Positions 39,722 through 54,403 of a stretch of DNA of 64,000 nucleotides are shown piece after piece; within the stretch, counting starts at the first letter, position 1; each line of letters begins with the position of its first letter. This stretch comes from Actinorugispora endophytica (GTDB lineage: Bacteria > Actinomycetota > Actinomycetes > Streptosporangiales > Streptosporangiaceae). The DNA lies in the NCBI RefSeq assembly GCF_004363075.1, contig NZ_SNYN01000007.1, positions 1 through 64,000 of the forward strand. Direction: 5' to 3'. A program made the translations under genes and the position numbers. A model generated the notes under the pieces. That model searched no databases. It had not been told where the DNA came from and saw nothing but the letters and a program-made list of their open reading frames with translations.

Positions 39722-40025
39722 GGCCGACCGCCGCCGACGACTCTCCGGCGGCAGAACGGGGAGCCCGCACCGCCGCCCGACGGCGCGCGCCCCTCCCCCG
39801 CCCCACGGCGCCCTCCCAGCCCCGCCTCTGGGGGCTGTCCTGAGCCCCGTGCGCACATCCCGCACGAGGTTCAGGTCAGCCGGTGGTCCGCCAGACCTCT
39901 TCGCTGACACCCCGGCACCCGCCCGCGCGTCATTCCGGGCGGCCCTGCCGCCGACGACCGGACACCCTCCTGCGGAACGGCGCCACCGCGCCCCGCAGCA
40001 TCCGTCACGACAACACGGAGGACCC
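39722..40025. other. Intergenic region with no supported features
   Basis: A 304-base gap between exported-protein genes. Only the CGGAGGACCC ribosome-binding site just before the 40026 start is clear. Confidence 0.5.
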
Positions 40026-40883
40026 ATGTTCACGTTCGCCCGCACGACCGCCAAGGCCGTCATCCTCGCCGCCGGAACCGCCGGGTTCATCGCCCTGGGC
40101 GCCGGCATCGCCTCCGCGGCGGTCCTGGACGGGGCCGCCGAAACGCGGCCGCAGCTCTCCCCGGAGGAGCTGACCAGCGTCCCCGGGGACCTCGTCGGCC
40201 CGTACTCGCCCACCCTGGCGTCGCTCTCCGACCAGGTCGGCGGCGAGGTGAGCGACACGGCCGGGGTCCGGGACGCGCTGCGGCTGGTCCCGGCGGACTC
40301 CGCGCGGCTCCTTCCCGTCCAGGAGCGCCACGCGCAGCGCTCCGCCCAGCCGGACCGCGACATCCCCACCGTCGACGGCCTGCTCGACGAACTCGCCGGC
40401 ATCGACGCCACGTTCACCCCCGTCACCGACACCAACCGCCACGCGCAGCACTCCGTCCTGCCCGACCGCGACATCCCCACCGTCGACGGCCTGCTCGACG
40501 AACTCGCCGGCATCGATGCCACGTTCACCCCCGTCACCGACACCAACCGCCACGCGCAGAGCGACCGGGGCTTCGTCGAGCGCCAGGTCGTCGGCTCGCC
40601 CGTCACCGAGCTGCCCGGCGACGTCCCCGGCCTGGTCCAGGCCGCCGCGGACGACCTGCCCGTCAGGGTTCCCACCCAGCTGGAGAACGTCGGGACCGGC
40701 GTGCTGAACGCCCAGCCGCCCGTGGGACGCCAGAGCCAGGTCTCCCCGCTCCCCCTCCGGGTGTCCACCCCGCCCACGCGCCCCGGATCGGCCGACCTCA
40801 CGGTCTGGCCCGGCACCATCACCGAGACCGAGACCGCCCGCACCGCCGAGCAGACGGTCGACGGCCTGGTCCCGAGCCTCTAG
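40026..40883 (+). CDS. Secreted protein with 37-residue internal repeats
   Basis: A 285-residue exported protein from ATG 40026. The signal peptide is MFTFARTTAKAVILAAGTAG followed by FIALGAGIASA. Residues 101-174 are two 37-residue repeats containing DRDIPTVDGLLDELAGIDAT; a third starts at 175 and breaks off after four residues. No Cys and no known domain. A strong terminator follows at 40888. Confidence 0.65.
   Translation: MFTFARTTAKAVILAAGTAGFIALGAGIASAAVLDGAAETRPQLSPEELTSVPGDLVGPYSPTLASLSDQVGGEVSDTAGVRDALRLVPADSARLLPVQERHAQRSAQPDRDIPTVDGLLDELAGIDATFTPVTDTNRHAQHSVLPDRDIPTVDGLLDELAGIDATFTPVTDTNRHAQSDRGFVERQVVGSPVTELPGDVPGLVQAAADDLPVRVPTQLENVGTGVLNAQPPVGRQSQVSPLPLRVSTPPTRPGSADLTVWPGTITETETARTAEQTVDGLVPSL
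40326..40547 (+). repeat. Two 111-base in-frame direct repeats
   Basis: Units 40326-40436 and 40437-40547 (each begins CGCCACGCGCAG) are nearly identical, with a 12-base remnant of a third at 40548. Each encodes 37 residues. Confidence 0.9.
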
Positions 40884-40887
40884 CCCC

Positions 40888-40927
40888 TGACCGGGGGCAC
40901 CGTCCCGGAAGGCGGCGCCCCCGGTCA
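40888..40927 (+). terminator. Terminator after the repeat protein gene
   Basis: TGACCGGGGGC / GCCCCCGGTCA, perfect 11-base-pair stem, 18-base loop, just after the stop codon at 40883. Confidence 0.75.
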
Positions 40928-40993
40928 ACGGCCCGGGCCGCGCTCCCCGGAGCGCCGCCCGCCTCGTCCACACACCGAAAAGGAACCCCTGAC

Positions 40994-41518
40994 ATGTTCA
41001 CGTTCGCCCGCACGACCGCCAAGGCCGTCCTCCTCGCCGCCGGAACCGCCGGGTTCATCGCCCTGGGCGGCGGCGTCGCCTCCGCCGCCCTCCCGGCCGA
41101 CGACGTCACCAGCCCGCTCGACGGGGTCCGGACCGTCCTGCCGACCGATCAGGTCTCCCCCCGCTCCCTGACCGGCCTGCCCGAAGCGGTCGGGGTCCCC
41201 CAGAGCGCTCCGGCCGACACGGGGATCATGCCCACCGTCGACGACGCGGACGACCTCGACCACCGCCTGTCCGAGCTGTCGGACCTGCTGGCCCCGGCCA
41301 CGACCGCGGAACTCGCCCACCAGGCCCGGGTCCAGCAGAGCAAGGTCGAGGCGGTCCTCGGCGACGCGACCGAGCTGACCTCCACCAGCGACCTCGTCGG
41401 CGCCACCACCGGCTCCCTGGGCGCCCCCGTGCCGCAGTCCGGGTCCGACGCCGTGCTGCCCCCGATCGGCGGCGCGACCGACCTGCTCGGCTCCCCGCTG
41501 GGCGGCCTGTCGCTCTGA
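40994..41518 (+). CDS. Secreted protein sharing the signal peptide of its neighbour
   Basis: A 174-residue exported protein from ATG 40994. The first 31 residues (MFTFARTTAKAVLLAAGTAG...) are nearly identical to those of the gene at 40026, also at DNA level, but the mature sequences differ. It has DDLDHRLSELSDLL and no Cys. The two genes probably arose from one ancestor, with strong conservation of only the signal. Confidence 0.62.
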   Translation: MFTFARTTAKAVLLAAGTAGFIALGGGVASAALPADDVTSPLDGVRTVLPTDQVSPRSLTGLPEAVGVPQSAPADTGIMPTVDDADDLDHRLSELSDLLAPATTAELAHQARVQQSKVEAVLGDATELTSTSDLVGATTGSLGAPVPQSGSDAVLPPIGGATDLLGSPLGGLSL

Positions 41519-45440: not shown

Positions 45441-45544
45441 GACCTGGGAAGGCGCAACTGTCCGACTGTGCTAAAGCTGAGGACGCCAGGCGTGCCAGGA
45501 TGAAGACACTGGCACCGCGACCTCGTGTGAGAGGCAAACTCCTC

Positions 45545-46414
45545 ATGTCAGACGTTGCCCCCCAGGCTCATTCGGTCAAGCCCATCCAAGACTTCCACCA
45601 GCAGGACCACGAAGACGTTCTCCTGCTGGTTGAGAACTGGTTGGACGTCGAACTCGACAGAAGCAGCGCGGCCTACGGCAACACCGGAACCACCGTCGGG
45701 TTCCGCTCGAACACCGGAATGTGGGTGCGGATCCAGTGGCGCCGCGCCGACCGGATGAACGGTCAGTCCTGGACCGGTGCTGAATGCGCCTCGGTCCTGA
45801 CCGGGGTGTCCAAGCCACAGCTCCGGCGCTCCGTGCGTTGGCAGGACGAGGCCCGCGGCGCAGTGTGGCGCGCCGACGAGATGACGATGGTCGAAGCACC
45901 TGTCATCGCGGAGAACGGGAGCATCACCGCCAACCCCGAGCTGGGTGATGCATGGTGGTCCGAGCTGAAGGCGTCCTTGACCGCGCTGGCCTCCCACAGG
46001 ACCAACCGGGTGGGTATGGGCCAGACCCACCTCACCCGCCGCCTCACCGAGGTCTTCGGCGACGCCGTGGACACGGATGTGGATGAATGGAGTACCGCGC
46101 ACGCCGACCTGCACTGGGGCAACCTCACCGCCCCGGATTGCCACCTGTTGGACTGGGAGGATTGGGGGGCGGCGCCGCGCGGCTACGACGCCGCCACCCT
46201 GTGGGGGTTCTCGCTGGGTGTGCCGTCGGTCGCTGACCGCGTCCAGCACGAGTTCCGACAAGACCTTTGCACCCGGGCGGGAAGGTTGTCTCAGTTGTTG
46301 TTCTGTGCCAACGTGCTGCGGGCCCATTCCCGCAGCGGGAAAACCATGCCCTTCACCGAACCGGCACGCCGTGCAGCCGACTCCCTGATCGCCCGGCTCC
46401 GGGCAGAGCCGTGA
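45545..46414 (+). CDS. APH-fold phosphotransferase
   Basis: A 289-residue kinase-fold protein from ATG 45545. The catalytic loop HADLHWGNL (186-194; Asp188, Asn193) and the metal-binding Asp203 in LLDWEDWG are intact. It has no N-terminal signal. It lies next to, and converges with, the aldo/keto reductase-JmjC-peptide genes. APH-fold enzymes phosphorylate small molecules, and some act in peptide (RiPP) pathways. The substrate here is unknown. Confidence 0.75.
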   Translation: MSDVAPQAHSVKPIQDFHQQDHEDVLLLVENWLDVELDRSSAAYGNTGTTVGFRSNTGMWVRIQWRRADRMNGQSWTGAECASVLTGVSKPQLRRSVRWQDEARGAVWRADEMTMVEAPVIAENGSITANPELGDAWWSELKASLTALASHRTNRVGMGQTHLTRRLTEVFGDAVDTDVDEWSTAHADLHWGNLTAPDCHLLDWEDWGAAPRGYDAATLWGFSLGVPSVADRVQHEFRQDLCTRAGRLSQLLFCANVLRAHSRSGKTMPFTEPARRAADSLIARLRAEP

Positions 46415-46433
46415 GACGGCTATGTGTGGGGGT

Positions 46434-47306
46434 TCACACGGGCTGGCGGTTGCTGGAAGAGGTGGCCAGCAGGGTTCGATAGCTGGCGATCGCCGCTTCG
46501 CTGGCTGGCAGTTGTGCGGCCTGGAGCAGTTCACGAAGGTGGCCGAGGTGGTTGGTTCCGATTGCTACCCGGCTGACCTTCGGGAGCTCGTAGGAGGCAC
46601 GGAAGGCCGCGGCCAGGTTCGAGCAGGATGACTCGTCTGGCAGGAACGCACGGGCGTTGACCTGGTCCCACACCCGGTCCGTGCTGTGTCCGGCGAACGG
46701 GCTCATCCCCCACCGTTGGTCTGGGGAAAGGTCCCACAGTGCGGCTGCTGCTTCAATGGCGTCCAGAGTCCGGGAGCTGACGATCAGGCCCGCGCGCGCC
46801 ATGAACACCTGTGGGGCGGGCGCGTCCCGCGGTCCTTTGATCGCGGGGAGAAGGGGGCGAGGGTTCCACGACGCGATGCCCCAGGAGGCGCATAGTCCAC
46901 TGGCCACTGCGGCTTCCAGTTCAGCGTTGGCGGCAGCCAGGACGTCGCTCGCTTGCTCGGGTTCCAGATGTGTGAGGGTGTGCTCGGGGTTGTGCAGGAA
47001 CATCACGTCCGGGGGCACGCCGAGTTCCTCTGCAGTCTTCTCCACGGCCTGCCGTAGGCGCTGGGGGTCCAGGGAATGCTCGCTGTGGCCAGTTCCGGTG
47101 AGGAAGAAGCCGACCTTGGTGGAGATCGACAGGTCTGGCAGCAGGTCGCCCGCCCGTTGGGCGAGAGTCCGATGAGCGGCGAAGCCGAGGTAGTTGTAGC
47201 TGGTGTCGATCCGGTGGACCCCGAGTCTCAGTGCTCCTTCGAGGAGGTCTCGCTCGTAACGAGACCGGTATAGCCCGAGGACAACTCCGGGGTCAGCTGG
47301 GCGCAC
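46434..47306 (-). CDS. Aldo/keto reductase
   Basis: A 290-residue TIM-barrel oxidoreductase. Catalytic residues fit the family: Asp34 and Tyr39 in IDTSYNYLG, Lys64 in STKVG and His105 in LHNPEH. The start at GTG 47306 lies inside the end of the JmjC gene (79-base out-of-frame overlap), so translation is coupled. It reduces an unknown carbonyl with NADPH. Confidence 0.82.
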   Translation of the reverse strand: MRPADPGVVLGLYRSRYERDLLEGALRLGVHRIDTSYNYLGFAAHRTLAQRAGDLLPDLSISTKVGFFLTGTGHSEHSLDPQRLRQAVEKTAEELGVPPDVMFLHNPEHTLTHLEPEQASDVLAAANAELEAAVASGLCASWGIASWNPRPLLPAIKGPRDAPAPQVFMARAGLIVSSRTLDAIEAAAALWDLSPDQRWGMSPFAGHSTDRVWDQVNARAFLPDESSCSNLAAAFRASYELPKVSRVAIGTNHLGHLRELLQAAQLPASEAAIASYRTLLATSSSNRQPV

Positions 47307-48451
47307 AGCTCCTCCTTGACGAGGACGTCGGCGAGTTGCGCGGCGTCAATATCTGTTTGCTCGGCGACATCGGCCACGTGAGCTGGGGTGCCGCTGAGCA
47401 GCATGCGCAGCGCCGGGGCTGCCTTGGCTGCGAAGGTGATCTTCTTCCCCGCAGCCTGGACGGTGACGACGTCGTCGGCCTCGTGGACGTGTGGGGGGAA
47501 TTCGGTCACGCACACGACGTCGGTGAGGTTCCCGAAGATCGGTAGGTGAGGGATGTGGCGCGGAGCGGGCCGCTGTTCTTCCCTGGCGGAGAGGAACTCC
47601 GCGGGAGGGTGAGCCTTGATCAGTTCCGTGGCAGCCTGGGTGAGTGTCTCCTGCTGGACCTCGATGGATGCGCTTGTAGTCCACCGCTCCAGGTCGTGGC
47701 GGAACAGCTCATGTTCGCGTGCGCGGTCCGCGAGCCAGGCGATCCAGTTGGCTCCTGCGCGCTTGACGAAGCCGAACGTCGCGTGGAGGCTGAAGCCGTC
47801 TCCCCGGTCGGTGCGGGTAGCCTGGTGCCAGTAGCCGCGGGGGATGTGCATGACGTCGCCGGGACGCATGGTCCCGGCCCAGAGCACGTCCTCGGGGGGC
47901 TCGTTGTTGGGCTCGGCGTCCCGATACATCGGCGCGATGCGGGAAGCTCCACGCACCTCCCAACTCTTCTCCCCGGCCAACTGGACGATCACCACGTCAT
48001 GGTCGTCCCAGTGGAGTGAGAACCCGGCCGCGTCCTGGGTGGTCAGGTAGGTGTTGACCTGAACGAGTTCGCGCGACCACCACTGCAGGGCACGACACGC
48101 CACTTCCATCGTGGGGTCGAAGAAGTTGACCTCGTCAAGCACGAGGGTGCATCCGTCGTCGAGCAGACGGCCGAGCCTACGCATGTCGGGGACACGAATG
48201 CTCTGGCCCCTGCGGCTCACCAAGTCGCTGAGGAATCGGGACGGATGCAGTTCCTCGCCTGCCCGGAAGCACCGGAACTGCGGGACCGACAGGCTTCGCC
48301 TCATGATGACGTCGAGCAACTTGTGAGGGGTCAAAAGGCGGGTGGGGAGACGAGTGTCGCTGATGCTCCCACGCGCGAACTCCTTGCCCAACATACTCGG
48401 CCCTGGCCAGCTGAGCGCCTGCTCGATTTCCCGCACGAACCGATGTTCCAT
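47228..48451 (-). CDS. JmjC/cupin-type Fe(II)/2-oxoglutarate oxygenase
   Basis: A 407-residue JmjC-domain oxygenase of the ribosomal-oxygenase (RoxA/MINA-like) type. Metal ligands are His147 and Asp149 (LHWDDHDVV) and the distal His209 (HIPRGYWHQA). The C-terminal third has a winged-helix-like part (VADVAEQTDIDAAQLADVLVKEEL), common in protein-hydroxylating members. Such enzymes hydroxylate protein or peptide side chains. A 49-residue peptide is encoded 64 bases upstream on the same strand and is the obvious candidate substrate. Confidence 0.85.
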   Translation of the reverse strand: MEHRFVREIEQALSWPGPSMLGKEFARGSISDTRLPTRLLTPHKLLDVIMRRSLSVPQFRCFRAGEELHPSRFLSDLVSRRGQSIRVPDMRRLGRLLDDGCTLVLDEVNFFDPTMEVACRALQWWSRELVQVNTYLTTQDAAGFSLHWDDHDVVIVQLAGEKSWEVRGASRIAPMYRDAEPNNEPPEDVLWAGTMRPGDVMHIPRGYWHQATRTDRGDGFSLHATFGFVKRAGANWIAWLADRAREHELFRHDLERWTTSASIEVQQETLTQAATELIKAHPPAEFLSAREEQRPAPRHIPHLPIFGNLTDVVCVTEFPPHVHEADDVVTVQAAGKKITFAAKAAPALRMLLSGTPAHVADVAEQTDIDAAQLADVLVKEELCAQLTPELSSGYTGLVTSETSSKEH

Positions 48452-48515
48452 GAGTCTCTTTTCAGGAGAATCGATTTCTGAACTATGGACGAGTGCTGTT
48501 TGTTTCTAGTGAGCG

Positions 48516-48665
48516 CTAGGGCTCGATGTGGGTGAACCCGTCACGGTTCTCCCCGTCGTCGCCTACCGAGGTTCCCGTGGGATCGGAGTGCTCAGCGTCG
48601 AAGCGGTCGTGGACTCCAGCCAGGACCTCTACGTTCATCACCAGATCACTCGTGTGTTCGCTCAC
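48516..48665 (-). CDS. Small peptide, candidate modified-peptide precursor
   Basis: A 49-residue peptide from GTG 48665, preceded by GGAAGGTGAG about six bases upstream. A longer reading from ATG 48722 exists but lacks a good ribosome-binding site. The N-terminal part (SEHTSDLVMNVEVLAGVHDR) looks leader-like; the C-terminal part (DPTGTSVGDDGENRDGFTHI plus EP) is rich in Asp, Gly, Thr and Ser. No Cys. It precedes the JmjC gene in the same direction. A precursor role is inferred from size and context only. Confidence 0.55.
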   Translation of the reverse strand: MSEHTSDLVMNVEVLAGVHDRFDAEHSDPTGTSVGDDGENRDGFTHIEP

Positions 48666-48780
48666 GATGTTCTCACCTTCCGTCAAGACCAAAGCGAGAT
48701 GAGGATATTTTCGCTCTGCCATCGAGTCAATGGGTTGATTAGCACCCCCTCCATAACCTCAGGTCAGCGACTTTATTTCT

Positions 48781-49021: not shown

Positions 49022-50409
49022 CAGGGCCCCGCTGTGTTTGGGAATTGTGTGGGTTTGTCTTTGCTGGGCCAGGTCACGAGACGAGAACGGGCACGGTGCC
49101 CGCGATCATGGTGTTGTCTAAGCTCATGACCCGCAGGAAGCACCGTGCCCGTGTCTTCATCATCACTCATCTCAGACGAGGATCTCCAGCCGTCACCGGA
49201 TCTGCTGGAGCGTTTCTCGACCATCACCGACCCCCGCGATGCGCGGGGGCGCCGCCACAGCCTGACCTCGATTCTGGGCGTCTGCGTCTGCGCACTGGCC
49301 GCCTCGGGCCATGACCATCCCGCGGCGATCGCCGAATGGGCCGCTCGCACACCCCAAGACATCCTGGCCGAGCTGGGAGTACGGCGCGACCCGTTGAGCG
49401 GTCGGCACCAGCCGCCCAGCGAGACCACGATGCGCACCCTGCTCAAACGCCTGGACGCCGACCAGATCGAGACAGCGGGATACGCCCACCCGGCCGACCT
49501 GACACGCACCACCGTCGAGCGCCGACCGCGCCCCGGCGAACGCGAGCAGCGCAAAATCTCCACCCCAGACCCCGACCCGCGACACCGGCCACGCCACCGG
49601 GGGATCGCGGTGGACGGCAAAGCGCTGCGCGGCGCCCGCACCGGCCCCGACCGGCGCGTCCACCTGCTCCAGGCGGTGCGCCACCACGACGGAACGACTC
49701 TGGCCCAACGCCGCATCGATGGCAGGAAAGGCGAGATCACCGGCTTCGTCCCGCTCCTGGCGGGCCTGGACATCACCGGCGCCGTCGTGACGTTTGGCGC
49801 CCTGCACACCCAACACGCCCACGCCGAGCGGATCCACCAGGCCGACGGCACTACATCGCGGTTCTCAAAACCAACCATCCTCGGCTCCACGCGCGAGTCA
49901 GCGCGCTGCCGTGGGCGCGGGTTCCCCGAGCGCACCGGGTCAAGGAATCCGGGCACGCACGGATCGAGATCCGCTCGCTCAAGGTGATCCCACTCAACAA
50001 CGTGGCCTTCCCCCACGCCCGCCAAGTTCTACAGATCGTGCGCAAGCGTCGCACCCGTCACCAGCCGCGCTATCGCAGCGAGACCGTCTACGCGCTGACC
50101 GTCCTGCAAGCCCACCAGGCGGGTGGAGCCGATCTGGCCCGCTATATCCGCGAGCACTGGTCAGTGGAGAACAAAAGCCATCACGTCCACGACACCACCT
50201 TCACCGAGGACGCCTGCCGGGTCCGCGTCGGCTCGGCTCCACAGGTACCGGCCCGCCTGCGCAACCTGCTCATCGGCGTGTTTCGCCACTACGGATACGC
50301 CAACATCGCCTACGCCCACCGAGAACACACCAATCCCAACACCGCCCTCACCCTGCTATTCAGACCAAAACCACAAACCCGGACCTAACCCAAACACAGC
50401 GGGGCCCTG
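49022..50409 (+). mobile_element. ISAs1-family insertion sequence
   Basis: 1388 bases bounded by inverted repeats: left CAGGGCCCCGCTGTGTTTGG and the right end in reverse complement with the same CAGGGCCCCGCTGTGTTTGGG. No target-site duplication is visible (left flank ends GGTGACGTGG, right flank begins GGGTCACCCC), so the region was rearranged or the element inserted by deletion. Confidence 0.85.
49145..50388 (+). pseudogene. ISAs1 transposase, frameshifted
   Basis: The N-terminal frame (GTG 49145) has LLERFSTITDPRDARGRRHSLT and GIAVDGKALRGARTG. The C-terminal frame (from about 49850) has HYIAVLKTNHPRL, HARIEIRSLKVI and the EHWSVENKSHHVHD signature. One base is missing at about 49850, where ADGTTSRF replaces ADG-HYIAVLK. 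Both parts match one transposase of about 400 residues. It is probably inactive. Confidence 0.8.
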
Positions 50410-52804: not shown

Positions 52805-53373
52805 TCAGACCAGCGGGGGAGCGCTTCTGTCCTCGGTCGTGGCCGAACGGGGCAGCGGGACGATCCCCCGCGCGGGGAGGCCGGTCCCACCCGGCCGCGC
52901 GGAAGCACCGAGCCTCCGCTCGTTGCGCGCCCTGACCAGTACGGACAGCTCACCGGCGGACAGGACCGGCGCGCCGGACGCGAGCGCGAACCACACCGTC
53001 TTCCCGCCGGGCAGCGGCTCCACCCCGCACAGGCCGCCCGAGTAGGCCGTGACCACGGGCAGCCCCCGGCCACCCTCCGCGTCGAAGGCGACATCGGCCG
53101 GCGCCACCGGCGAGGGCAGCACCGGCCACCCGGCCCCCGCGTCCCGGACCTCCACCACCACGCAGCCCGCCGCCCAGCGCCACACCGCCAGCACGACCGG
53201 CGCCTCCCCGTAGCGCACCGCGTTGGCCACCAGCTCGCCGACCATCACCCGGGCGTCGTCCGCCCGCGCGCCCGTCACCCCGAACGACGCCAACCGCGAG
53301 CCCCCAAGGCCCGCGCCCCCGCCACACACCCCCGCTCCCGCGTCACCCAACGCGCGACGACATCGGCATCCAT
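52805..53373 (-). pseudogene. HATPase-family gene with a one-base frameshift
   Basis: The start with a strong GGGAGGG site is ATG 53373, reading MDADVVARWVTRERGCVAGA. That frame ends within about 33 codons. The ATPase body (ASFGVTGARADDARVMVGEL, VANAVRYG, VEVRDAG, GRGLPVV, GKTVWFALA) is in the next frame. One base is missing near 53300. Either the gene is broken or the sequence has an error there. It is the ATPase partner of the Scr1-type regulator at 53543. Confidence 0.75.
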
Positions 53374-53478
53374 AGACCCTCCCAAGTGGGCAGACAACGT
53401 TCGGCGATGGAACGGTCACCATCCCCTCACTCAGCATGCACAACATTTTTACGGTTCGCAATAAATTCGCATAGGAAA

Positions 53479-53494: not shown

Positions 53495-53542
53495 GTGGCA
53501 AGCTGAGTGCGCCCCTCAGGCATCCAGAACCGAGGAGAAGCC

Positions 53543-54403
53543 TTGATAGGAGACGAACCATCGCTGCGGCAGCGCTGGCTGGGCGCCCGGCTCGCGGAAC
53601 TGCGGCGGGAGAAGGCCTTCTCTCTCCAGGAGGCCTCACGTCGGGCCGAGCGCTCCATCGCCTCGTTGAGTCGGGTCGAGAACGGTCTGGTCGCGCTTCC
53701 GCCTCGCGACGTGCGCCCTCTCCTGGACGCCTACGGAATCTCCGACACCGACCTGCGCGAGACCCTGATCTCGGTGGCCGGCGAGGTCCAGGCCGAGCGT
53801 CGCGGCTGGTGGGTCGAACACGACGACGCCCTTTCGCCGTCCTACCTTGACCTGGTCCGCCTGGAAGCGGCGGCCACGGGGATCCACACCTTCGAGAACG
53901 GAGTGTTCCCCGGCCTCCTCCAGCATCCCGACTACGCGCATGCGGCCGTGCGCGCGACCGGAAGCGTCGATCTCACCGACGAGGAACTGGACCACTTCGT
54001 CTCGGTGCGCAGGCAGCGCCAACAGGTCCTCACCCGTGACGAGGACCCCGTCGCCTTCCACGCCGTCCTCCACGAGTCACTGCTCCACCAGCGGCTCGGC
54101 GGCTCCGAAGTGTTCGCCGCCCAACTCGGCCACATGCTGGAGTGCGCTCAACGACCCAACATCACCGTGCAGATCCTGCCTCTGGAGACCAGCGCCCACC
54201 CCGCGCTCGCAGGACCCTTCACCGTGCTGAGCATGGCCCGGCTCGATTTCGTGCATGTCGAACTCATGACCAGTGACGTCTACATCGAGGACCCCGCCAG
54301 TGTGCGGCGCTATCAGGACGCCTTCGCAACCTTGGGCGACCTCGCGCTGGGGCCAGCCGAATCGACACGGCTGATCGCTGACAAAATCGTCACAACAGTA
54401 TGA
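53543..54403 (+). CDS. Scr1-type XRE regulator with DUF5753 domain
   Basis: A 286-residue protein starting at TTG 53543, chosen because GAGGAGAAGCC precedes it. The XRE helix-turn-helix (KAFSLQEASRRAERSIASLSRVENG) is at about residues 20-70. The DUF5753 domain has VFPGLLQHPDYAHAAVRATG, FHAVLHESLLHQ and VQILPLETSAHPALAG. The stop overlaps the DUF397 start by four bases. Confidence 0.87.
   Translation: MIGDEPSLRQRWLGARLAELRREKAFSLQEASRRAERSIASLSRVENGLVALPPRDVRPLLDAYGISDTDLRETLISVAGEVQAERRGWWVEHDDALSPSYLDLVRLEAAATGIHTFENGVFPGLLQHPDYAHAAVRATGSVDLTDEELDHFVSVRRQRQQVLTRDEDPVAFHAVLHESLLHQRLGGSEVFAAQLGHMLECAQRPNITVQILPLETSAHPALAGPFTVLSMARLDFVHVELMTSDVYIEDPASVRRYQDAFATLGDLALGPAESTRLIADKIVTTV

Follow-up and report, generated by a model that had tools for sequence, protein, structure and literature searches.

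What is made by a compact set of four genes in Actinorugispora endophytica, in which a very short open reading frame is followed by genes for a JmjC oxygenase, an aldo/keto reductase (AKR) and, converging on the latter, an APH-fold kinase? The set occupies positions 45529–48773 of the first 64,000 nucleotides of contig NZ_SNYN01000007.1 (NCBI RefSeq assembly GCF_004363075.1), the whole stretch of DNA analysed here and referred to as the window. A reading made from the sequence alone had suggested a modified-peptide cluster. From comparison across genomes, we propose that the cassette probably makes a previously undescribed class of ribosomally synthesized and post-translationally modified peptide (RiPP), to which we assign a probability of about 75 %. 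All features named in the sequence-only reading, including the 79-base overlap of the JmjC and AKR genes and the convergent APH gene, were located in the window:

45529–48773, both strands: whole cassette, from the DNA alignment with the Nocardiopsis metallicus locus
45545–46414, forward strand: APH-fold kinase-like gene, 289 aa, convergent on the AKR gene; motifs HADLHWGN...LLDWE
46434–47306, reverse strand: aldo/keto reductase, 290 aa; tetrad D34, Y39, K64, H105
47228–47306, reverse strand: JmjC/AKR overlap of 79 bp, present in many orthologous loci too
47228–48451, reverse strand: JmjC_2 oxygenase, 407 aa; metal ligands H147, D149, H209
47297–47521, reverse strand: C-terminal portion of the JmjC protein, mapped from an AlphaFold (AF2) model of locus L034
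48516–48665, reverse strand: precursor-like peptide, 49 aa, MSEHTSDLVMNVEVLAGVHDRFDAEHSDPTGTSVGDDGENRDGFTHIEP; GTG start at 48665
48588–48665, reverse strand: putative leader, residues 1–26; conserved motif L-V/L-x-x-V-E-x-L-x-x-V-H-D-R
48516–48587, reverse strand: putative core and tail, residues 27–49, SDPTGTSVGDDGENRDGFTHIEP; columns S27, D28, G35, D36 and D42 conserved family-wide
48672–48681, reverse strand: Shine-Dalgarno-like GGAAGGTGAG, 6 nt before the peptide GTG

Comparison with N. metallicus delimits the unit: over the 24 kb compared (window 36–60 kb), only 45529–48773 aligns, at 84.6 % identity, and the aligned stretch holds exactly the peptide, JmjC, AKR and APH genes and nothing beyond. 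By sequence, these genes travel together as a four-gene unit. The cassette has a GC content of 65 % as compared to 71 % for the window, has a tRNA-Arg gene at a distance of about 0.9 kb and looks like a mobile unit.

The same arrangement recurs widely. Genome-collection scans and fetched neighbourhoods yielded 110 loci with a close JmjC relative (ca. 51–92 % identity; a few loci represent one genome reached twice), hereafter class A. A peptide homologue lies directly upstream of the JmjC gene in all 110, while AKR is present in 103 and APH in 98 of them, so the expectation that homologous peptides would be found beside JmjC and AKR genes in other actinomycetes held. Host genera comprise Streptomyces, Kitasatospora, Streptacidiphilus, Amycolatopsis, Actinokineospora, Kibdelosporangium, Actinophytocola, Actinomadura, Nocardiopsis, and Frankia, and additional copies reside on Streptomyces, Nocardia, and Pseudonocardia plasmids. 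A search at E ≤ 1e-100 found no relatives in 251 genomes of another family, a result that, having no positive control, shows little. Neither of the two outcomes named beforehand as damaging, homologous loci devoid of the peptide or JmjC genes amid unrelated neighbours, was encountered for this JmjC subfamily. The four-gene set as first described thus stands for most loci, yet not as a fixed ensemble: AKR or APH is absent from a few lineages and JmjC is missing from two or three Frankia loci (see below), which makes the cassette modular. As an isolated case, a Nocardiopsis-like genome (L161) carries a truncated version with an intact peptide, a shortened JmjC gene and neither AKR nor APH. Judged from these neighbourhoods, the arrangement expected of a RiPP locus, a small precursor gene adjoining modifying enzymes and conserved across genomes, is present.

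The peptide itself carries much of the argument. Its open reading frame (48516–48722, reverse strand) encodes 68 aa from an in-frame ATG at 48722 and 49 aa from the internal GTG at 48665; the 49-aa form matches the N. metallicus orthologue in length and start, in keeping with the Cys-free peptide, GTG start and Shine-Dalgarno sequence initially recognised. The two peptide genes differ at 5, 2, and 11 sites at codon positions 1, 2, and 3, respectively, and since close pairs differ mainly at third positions, the peptide is a protein under purifying selection. Within the leader, residues 8–21 (L-x-x-x-V-E-x-L-x-x-V-H-D-R; LLVAVExLxxVHDR) are highly conserved, with L8, V12, and L15 near-invariant and R21 invariant in 111 peptide sequences. 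The C-terminal part is lineage-specific, for example, SDPTGTSVGDDGENRDG, SDNAGSSGDAPWPGGDG, SDGAQDAGGDGHGDAGGDG, SDPPPDGGGDDPWPEGD or, in Frankia, merely SDSDGSDG, and the many lineage types of core range from 8 to about 30 aa in length. Wherever the respective columns are present, Asp at 28, 36, and 42 and Gly at 35 are kept (SD...GD...DG). The anticipated conserved leader was therefore found together with a lineage-variable, Asp-rich core, but the core as a whole is Asp/Gly-rich rather than Asp/Thr-rich, Thr being prominent in some lineages only. At the sequence level, conserved leader plus variable core is the pattern of a RiPP precursor.

This pattern also bears on a different explanation, in which the product would be an intracellular regulatory or signalling peptide that is tuned by the enzymes and targets an XRE regulator encoded nearby, no natural product being exported. 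Of 79 gene-called loci, 46 have XRE-type regulators and 35 have HATPase_c proteins, the window itself holds an XRE/DUF5753 gene (53507–54403) and an HATPase gene (52805–53461), and no conserved exporter or peptidase was found among class A neighbours. Such regulators are common in actinobacteria, however, their distance and strand vary between loci, and the N. metallicus alignment stops short of both genes. As lineage-wise variation of the core fits a product better, we consider the regulatory explanation fairly unlikely.

The JmjC protein matches JmjC_2 in Pfam (1.7e-21), and H147, D149, and H209 are invariant in a 70-sequence alignment that includes paralogues of about 30 % identity, so that the ligands first reported as intact indeed are. 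Its closest solved folds are NO66 (Z ca. 21), MINA53, YcfD, and YxbC, each of them a protein hydroxylase, known or putative (best structural matches Z ca. 17–21). By predicted fold and His-x-Asp...His triad, it qualifies as a JmjC_2 Fe(II)/2-oxoglutarate (2OG) oxygenase. With the ribosomal oxygenases NO66, MINA53, and YcfD/RoxA it shares the JmjC_2 fold and a C-terminal winged-helix domain. These are single enzymes acting on ribosomal proteins and, unlike the cassette enzyme, they are uncoupled from a small peptide gene, AKR, and APH. That ribosomal oxygenases are its nearest folds could mean that the enzyme has a ribosomal or other protein as its target, with the peptide serving as inhibitor or cofactor instead of substrate. 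Under such an arrangement, a constant leader beside a core that diversifies by lineage would be difficult to understand, as would peptides accompanied by AKR and APH but no JmjC, and the pairing of distant JmjC paralogues with different Asp-rich peptides; we regard it as very improbable.

For a substrate, recognition by the enzyme may be reflected in structure models. At several loci the JmjC gene continues the reading frame of the peptide, so that the real DNA, read through the peptide stop codon, gives a natural peptide–linker–enzyme fusion. Two distant fusions were modelled with AF2, from N. metallicus and from a paralogous locus of the window's own genome (class B, see below). The leader forms a beta strand at residues 9–14 in the former (block mean predicted local distance difference test (pLDDT) score 83) and at residues 9–12 in the latter (first block pLDDT 85), while core and linker are disordered in both; the secondary elements of the JmjC C-terminal domain follow a RiPP recognition element (RRE)-like order in the AF2 models of two classes. 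A strand requires something to pair with, and as the peptide contains no second one, the leader should pair with the enzyme. The models hence predict that the C-terminal winged-helix domain binds the leader strand (DLVMNVEVL) in the manner of an RRE, and suggest that relatives of the JmjC ribosomal oxygenases can use this domain to read leader peptides. Bacterial PF08007 homologues of RRE-like eukaryotic proteins in RiPP-like contexts are mentioned in a single sentence by Bregman et al. (2025, PMC12710340). A JmjC_2 enzyme with an RRE-like domain, predicted from models for the cassette, would be common to both systems, whereas the text consulted describes no precursor family, AKR, APH, or gene cassette.

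The two remaining enzymes are assigned with differing ease. The AKR matches Aldo_ket_red in Pfam (4.9e-12), its Asp-Tyr-Lys-His tetrad is kept in 99 % of orthologues, and by family and tetrad it classifies as an aldo/keto reductase. The APH protein stays under the Pfam cut-off for PF01636 (E = 5.7e-4, score 20.1 vs. 23.2), which its plasmid orthologue L215 exceeds (25.0); its H/D/N/D kinase motifs (Brenner HxDxxxxN, metal-binding Asp) are kept in 100 % of about 100 orthologues. Searches of AKR and APH against PDB sequences gave weak or no matches. As members of the APH subfamily also occur at peptide-less loci (L236–L240), the family alone is not diagnostic. An AKR-less cluster of Amycolatopsis taiwanensis carries two tandem APH genes (L107:11183–12935).

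How might these enzymes act on the peptide? Asp beside Gly or Ser is common to all JmjC-linked peptides, distant classes included, and Asp beta-hydroxylation is therefore the likeliest first step; hydroxylation as such had already been suggested by the sequence-only reading and stays an inference. We propose that the Fe(II)/2OG-dependent JmjC enzyme hydroxylates core side chains, most likely the beta-carbons of the invariant Asp residues, which we rate at just under even odds. AKR and APH would act afterwards. Somewhat more cautiously, the APH kinase may, instead of conferring self-resistance, phosphorylate the core, either to mark it lastingly or to activate it, and, more tentatively still, the AKR might catalyse a redox reaction that involves the Ser-Asp with which the core begins. 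On the JmjC tree, three AKR losses fall on the same branches as three losses of core Ser27, both being present in 102 loci and neither in 6 (three broken loci left out). Examples without AKR are Frankia with ADPDGSDG (vs. SDSDGSDG with AKR) and Actinokineospora auranticolor and Amycolatopsis taiwanensis with GDPSK. APH-less clusters have shortened cores, in two events only. From the AKR/Ser27 co-loss, these short cores and the JmjC-less Frankia clusters, we infer that the modification steps are separate and partly independent. A general host peptidase would finally trim the peptide, as class A clusters come without a dedicated one.

Several observations weigh against this scheme. The Ser27–AKR link comprises three events, too few to reach significance (p 0.25 by sign test); a decaying locus (L166) accounts for one of these events, and L234, a distant plasmid relative that does have AKR, is an exception, with Gly-Asp where its kin have Ser-Asp. 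Two Frankia genomes hold peptide–AKR–APH clusters without JmjC, one intact (L242:6852–8734) and one possibly decaying (L243:5638–7758), which is tempered by a separate class A peptide–JmjC locus elsewhere in the same genomes. The AF2 output does not name the partner strand of the leader. Lastly, no dedicated peptidase or exporter was found among the recurrent class A neighbours; such genes are frequent in RiPP clusters but no defining requirement.

Comparison with known RiPP systems yields partial precedents. In the biosynthesis of biphenomycin, the JmjC enzyme BipG hydroxylates ornithine, which sets a precedent for JmjC Fe(II)/2OG side-chain hydroxylation of a ribosomal precursor (BipG/BpmG; PMC12707348), the activity of the cassette JmjC being a proposal. 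Biphenomycin clusters feature MNIO, B12-radical SAM, arginase, and TldD proteins and an aromatic FRF core, none of which the cassette has, and they lack AKR and APH; membership in this family was rejected, with MNIO, B12-radical SAM, arginase, and the FRF core being absent from the four proteins and their recurrent neighbours. APH-fold phosphotransferases are encoded beside precursor peptides in thioamitide and class V-type lanthipeptide clusters (sprPT/sprH3; PMC7794033), where the kinase has a HopA1-like protein as its partner and targets Ser/Thr in a Cys-containing core. Of the likeness to thioviridamide drawn at the outset, the kinase fold persists, but no HopA1 partner is among the four genes; a Pfam scan of the four proteins and the recurrent neighbours found no HopA1 and the core has no Cys, so this membership was likewise rejected. 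Neither defence nor phage origin offers a better home: PADLOC returned zero matches to anti-phage systems, and PHROGs matched JmjC only, in families of unknown function. Literature searches, whose coverage excluded most subscription papers and preprints, returned no description of the exact gene set. On strong genomic support, the cassette appears to represent a new class within the RiPPs. It would be a widespread class with an enzyme set absent from the descriptions in the literature searched, whose precursor, enzymes and natural variants are all small. It would also assign a probable role to genes whose annotation reads just 'cupin', 'aldo/keto reductase', or 'hypothetical': the plasmid records name merely a 'cupin domain-containing protein', 'aldo/keto reductase', 'phosphotransferase', and 'hypothetical protein', with the peptide gene annotated in one of three.

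Beyond class A, distant JmjC paralogues (30–41 % identity) adjoin further short peptides rich in Asp. In class A' (L024, L025, L192, L234, L235), AKR and APH-like genes are retained. Class B consists of a POP peptidase, a peptide (M-x-EVEVEDL-x-EVTSRDITAGGDSDGTDSSSDFI) with a nearly invariant core, and JmjC in 28/28 loci, with a gene for an FhuF-like ferric reductase 1.3 to 7.5 kb away in 27 of them. The window's own genome holds such a second system (L022:7124–7238; G000:C28), with a POP (S9) peptidase, a 37-aa peptide MDPNQFEVEVEELPEVTSRDVTAGGDSDGSDGSSDFI, JmjC, and an FhuF-like protein. Beta-hydroxyaspartate is a known siderophore ligand. This, the three conserved Asp within a Gly-rich core and the FhuF-like gene following the class B units could point, as a special case of the RiPP proposal, to a ribosomal metallophore in which beta-hydroxy-Asp chelates Fe(III) or Ca(II). 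The iron-box-like sites of class B, however, precede FhuF and not the peptide/JmjC unit, and iron genes are not among the recurrent class A neighbours, which makes a metallophore unlikely. As a component of class B, FhuF was set aside owing to its loose adjacency and its own iron-box-like sites, and remains a lead only; iron regulation of class A was also rejected, with no iron genes among its recurrent neighbours (iron boxes were scanned in class B only).

Returning to the RiPP proposal, a broader and rather doubtful extension would place a large and so far unrecognised clan of RiPP enzymes among the NO66/RoxA-fold JmjC_2 oxygenases. In this clan, the winged-helix domain would be a leader-binding RRE, their substrates short Asp/Gly-rich peptides and their products beta-hydroxyaspartate peptides, possibly metal ligands, in the branch studied here further altered by dedicated AKR and APH enzymes. 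At least four cluster types would belong to it (AKR/APH; POP peptidase near FhuF; M16/MFS; Gly-Gly-type leader with Asp-rich repeat core). A plasmid of Streptomyces sp. NBC_01343 (L217:2241–6191) encodes JmjC (41 % identity), a 51-aa Asp-rich peptide, two M16-like peptidases, and an MFS transporter and looks like a further RiPP type. At L033, 258 to 7 bases upstream of a distant JmjC gene, a peptide combines a Gly-Gly-like leader motif (...LSEDDIETVTGG) with a long Asp/Ala-rich repeat (DGDASD).

In the window, the stretch directly upstream of the cassette (49145–50388) contains transposase-like open reading frames, apparently insertion sequence remnants with a split reading frame. Positions 40024–41518 encode two tandem secreted proteins that share their signal region (MFTFARTTAKAV...); inside the first, a stretch of about 38 aa is directly repeated.

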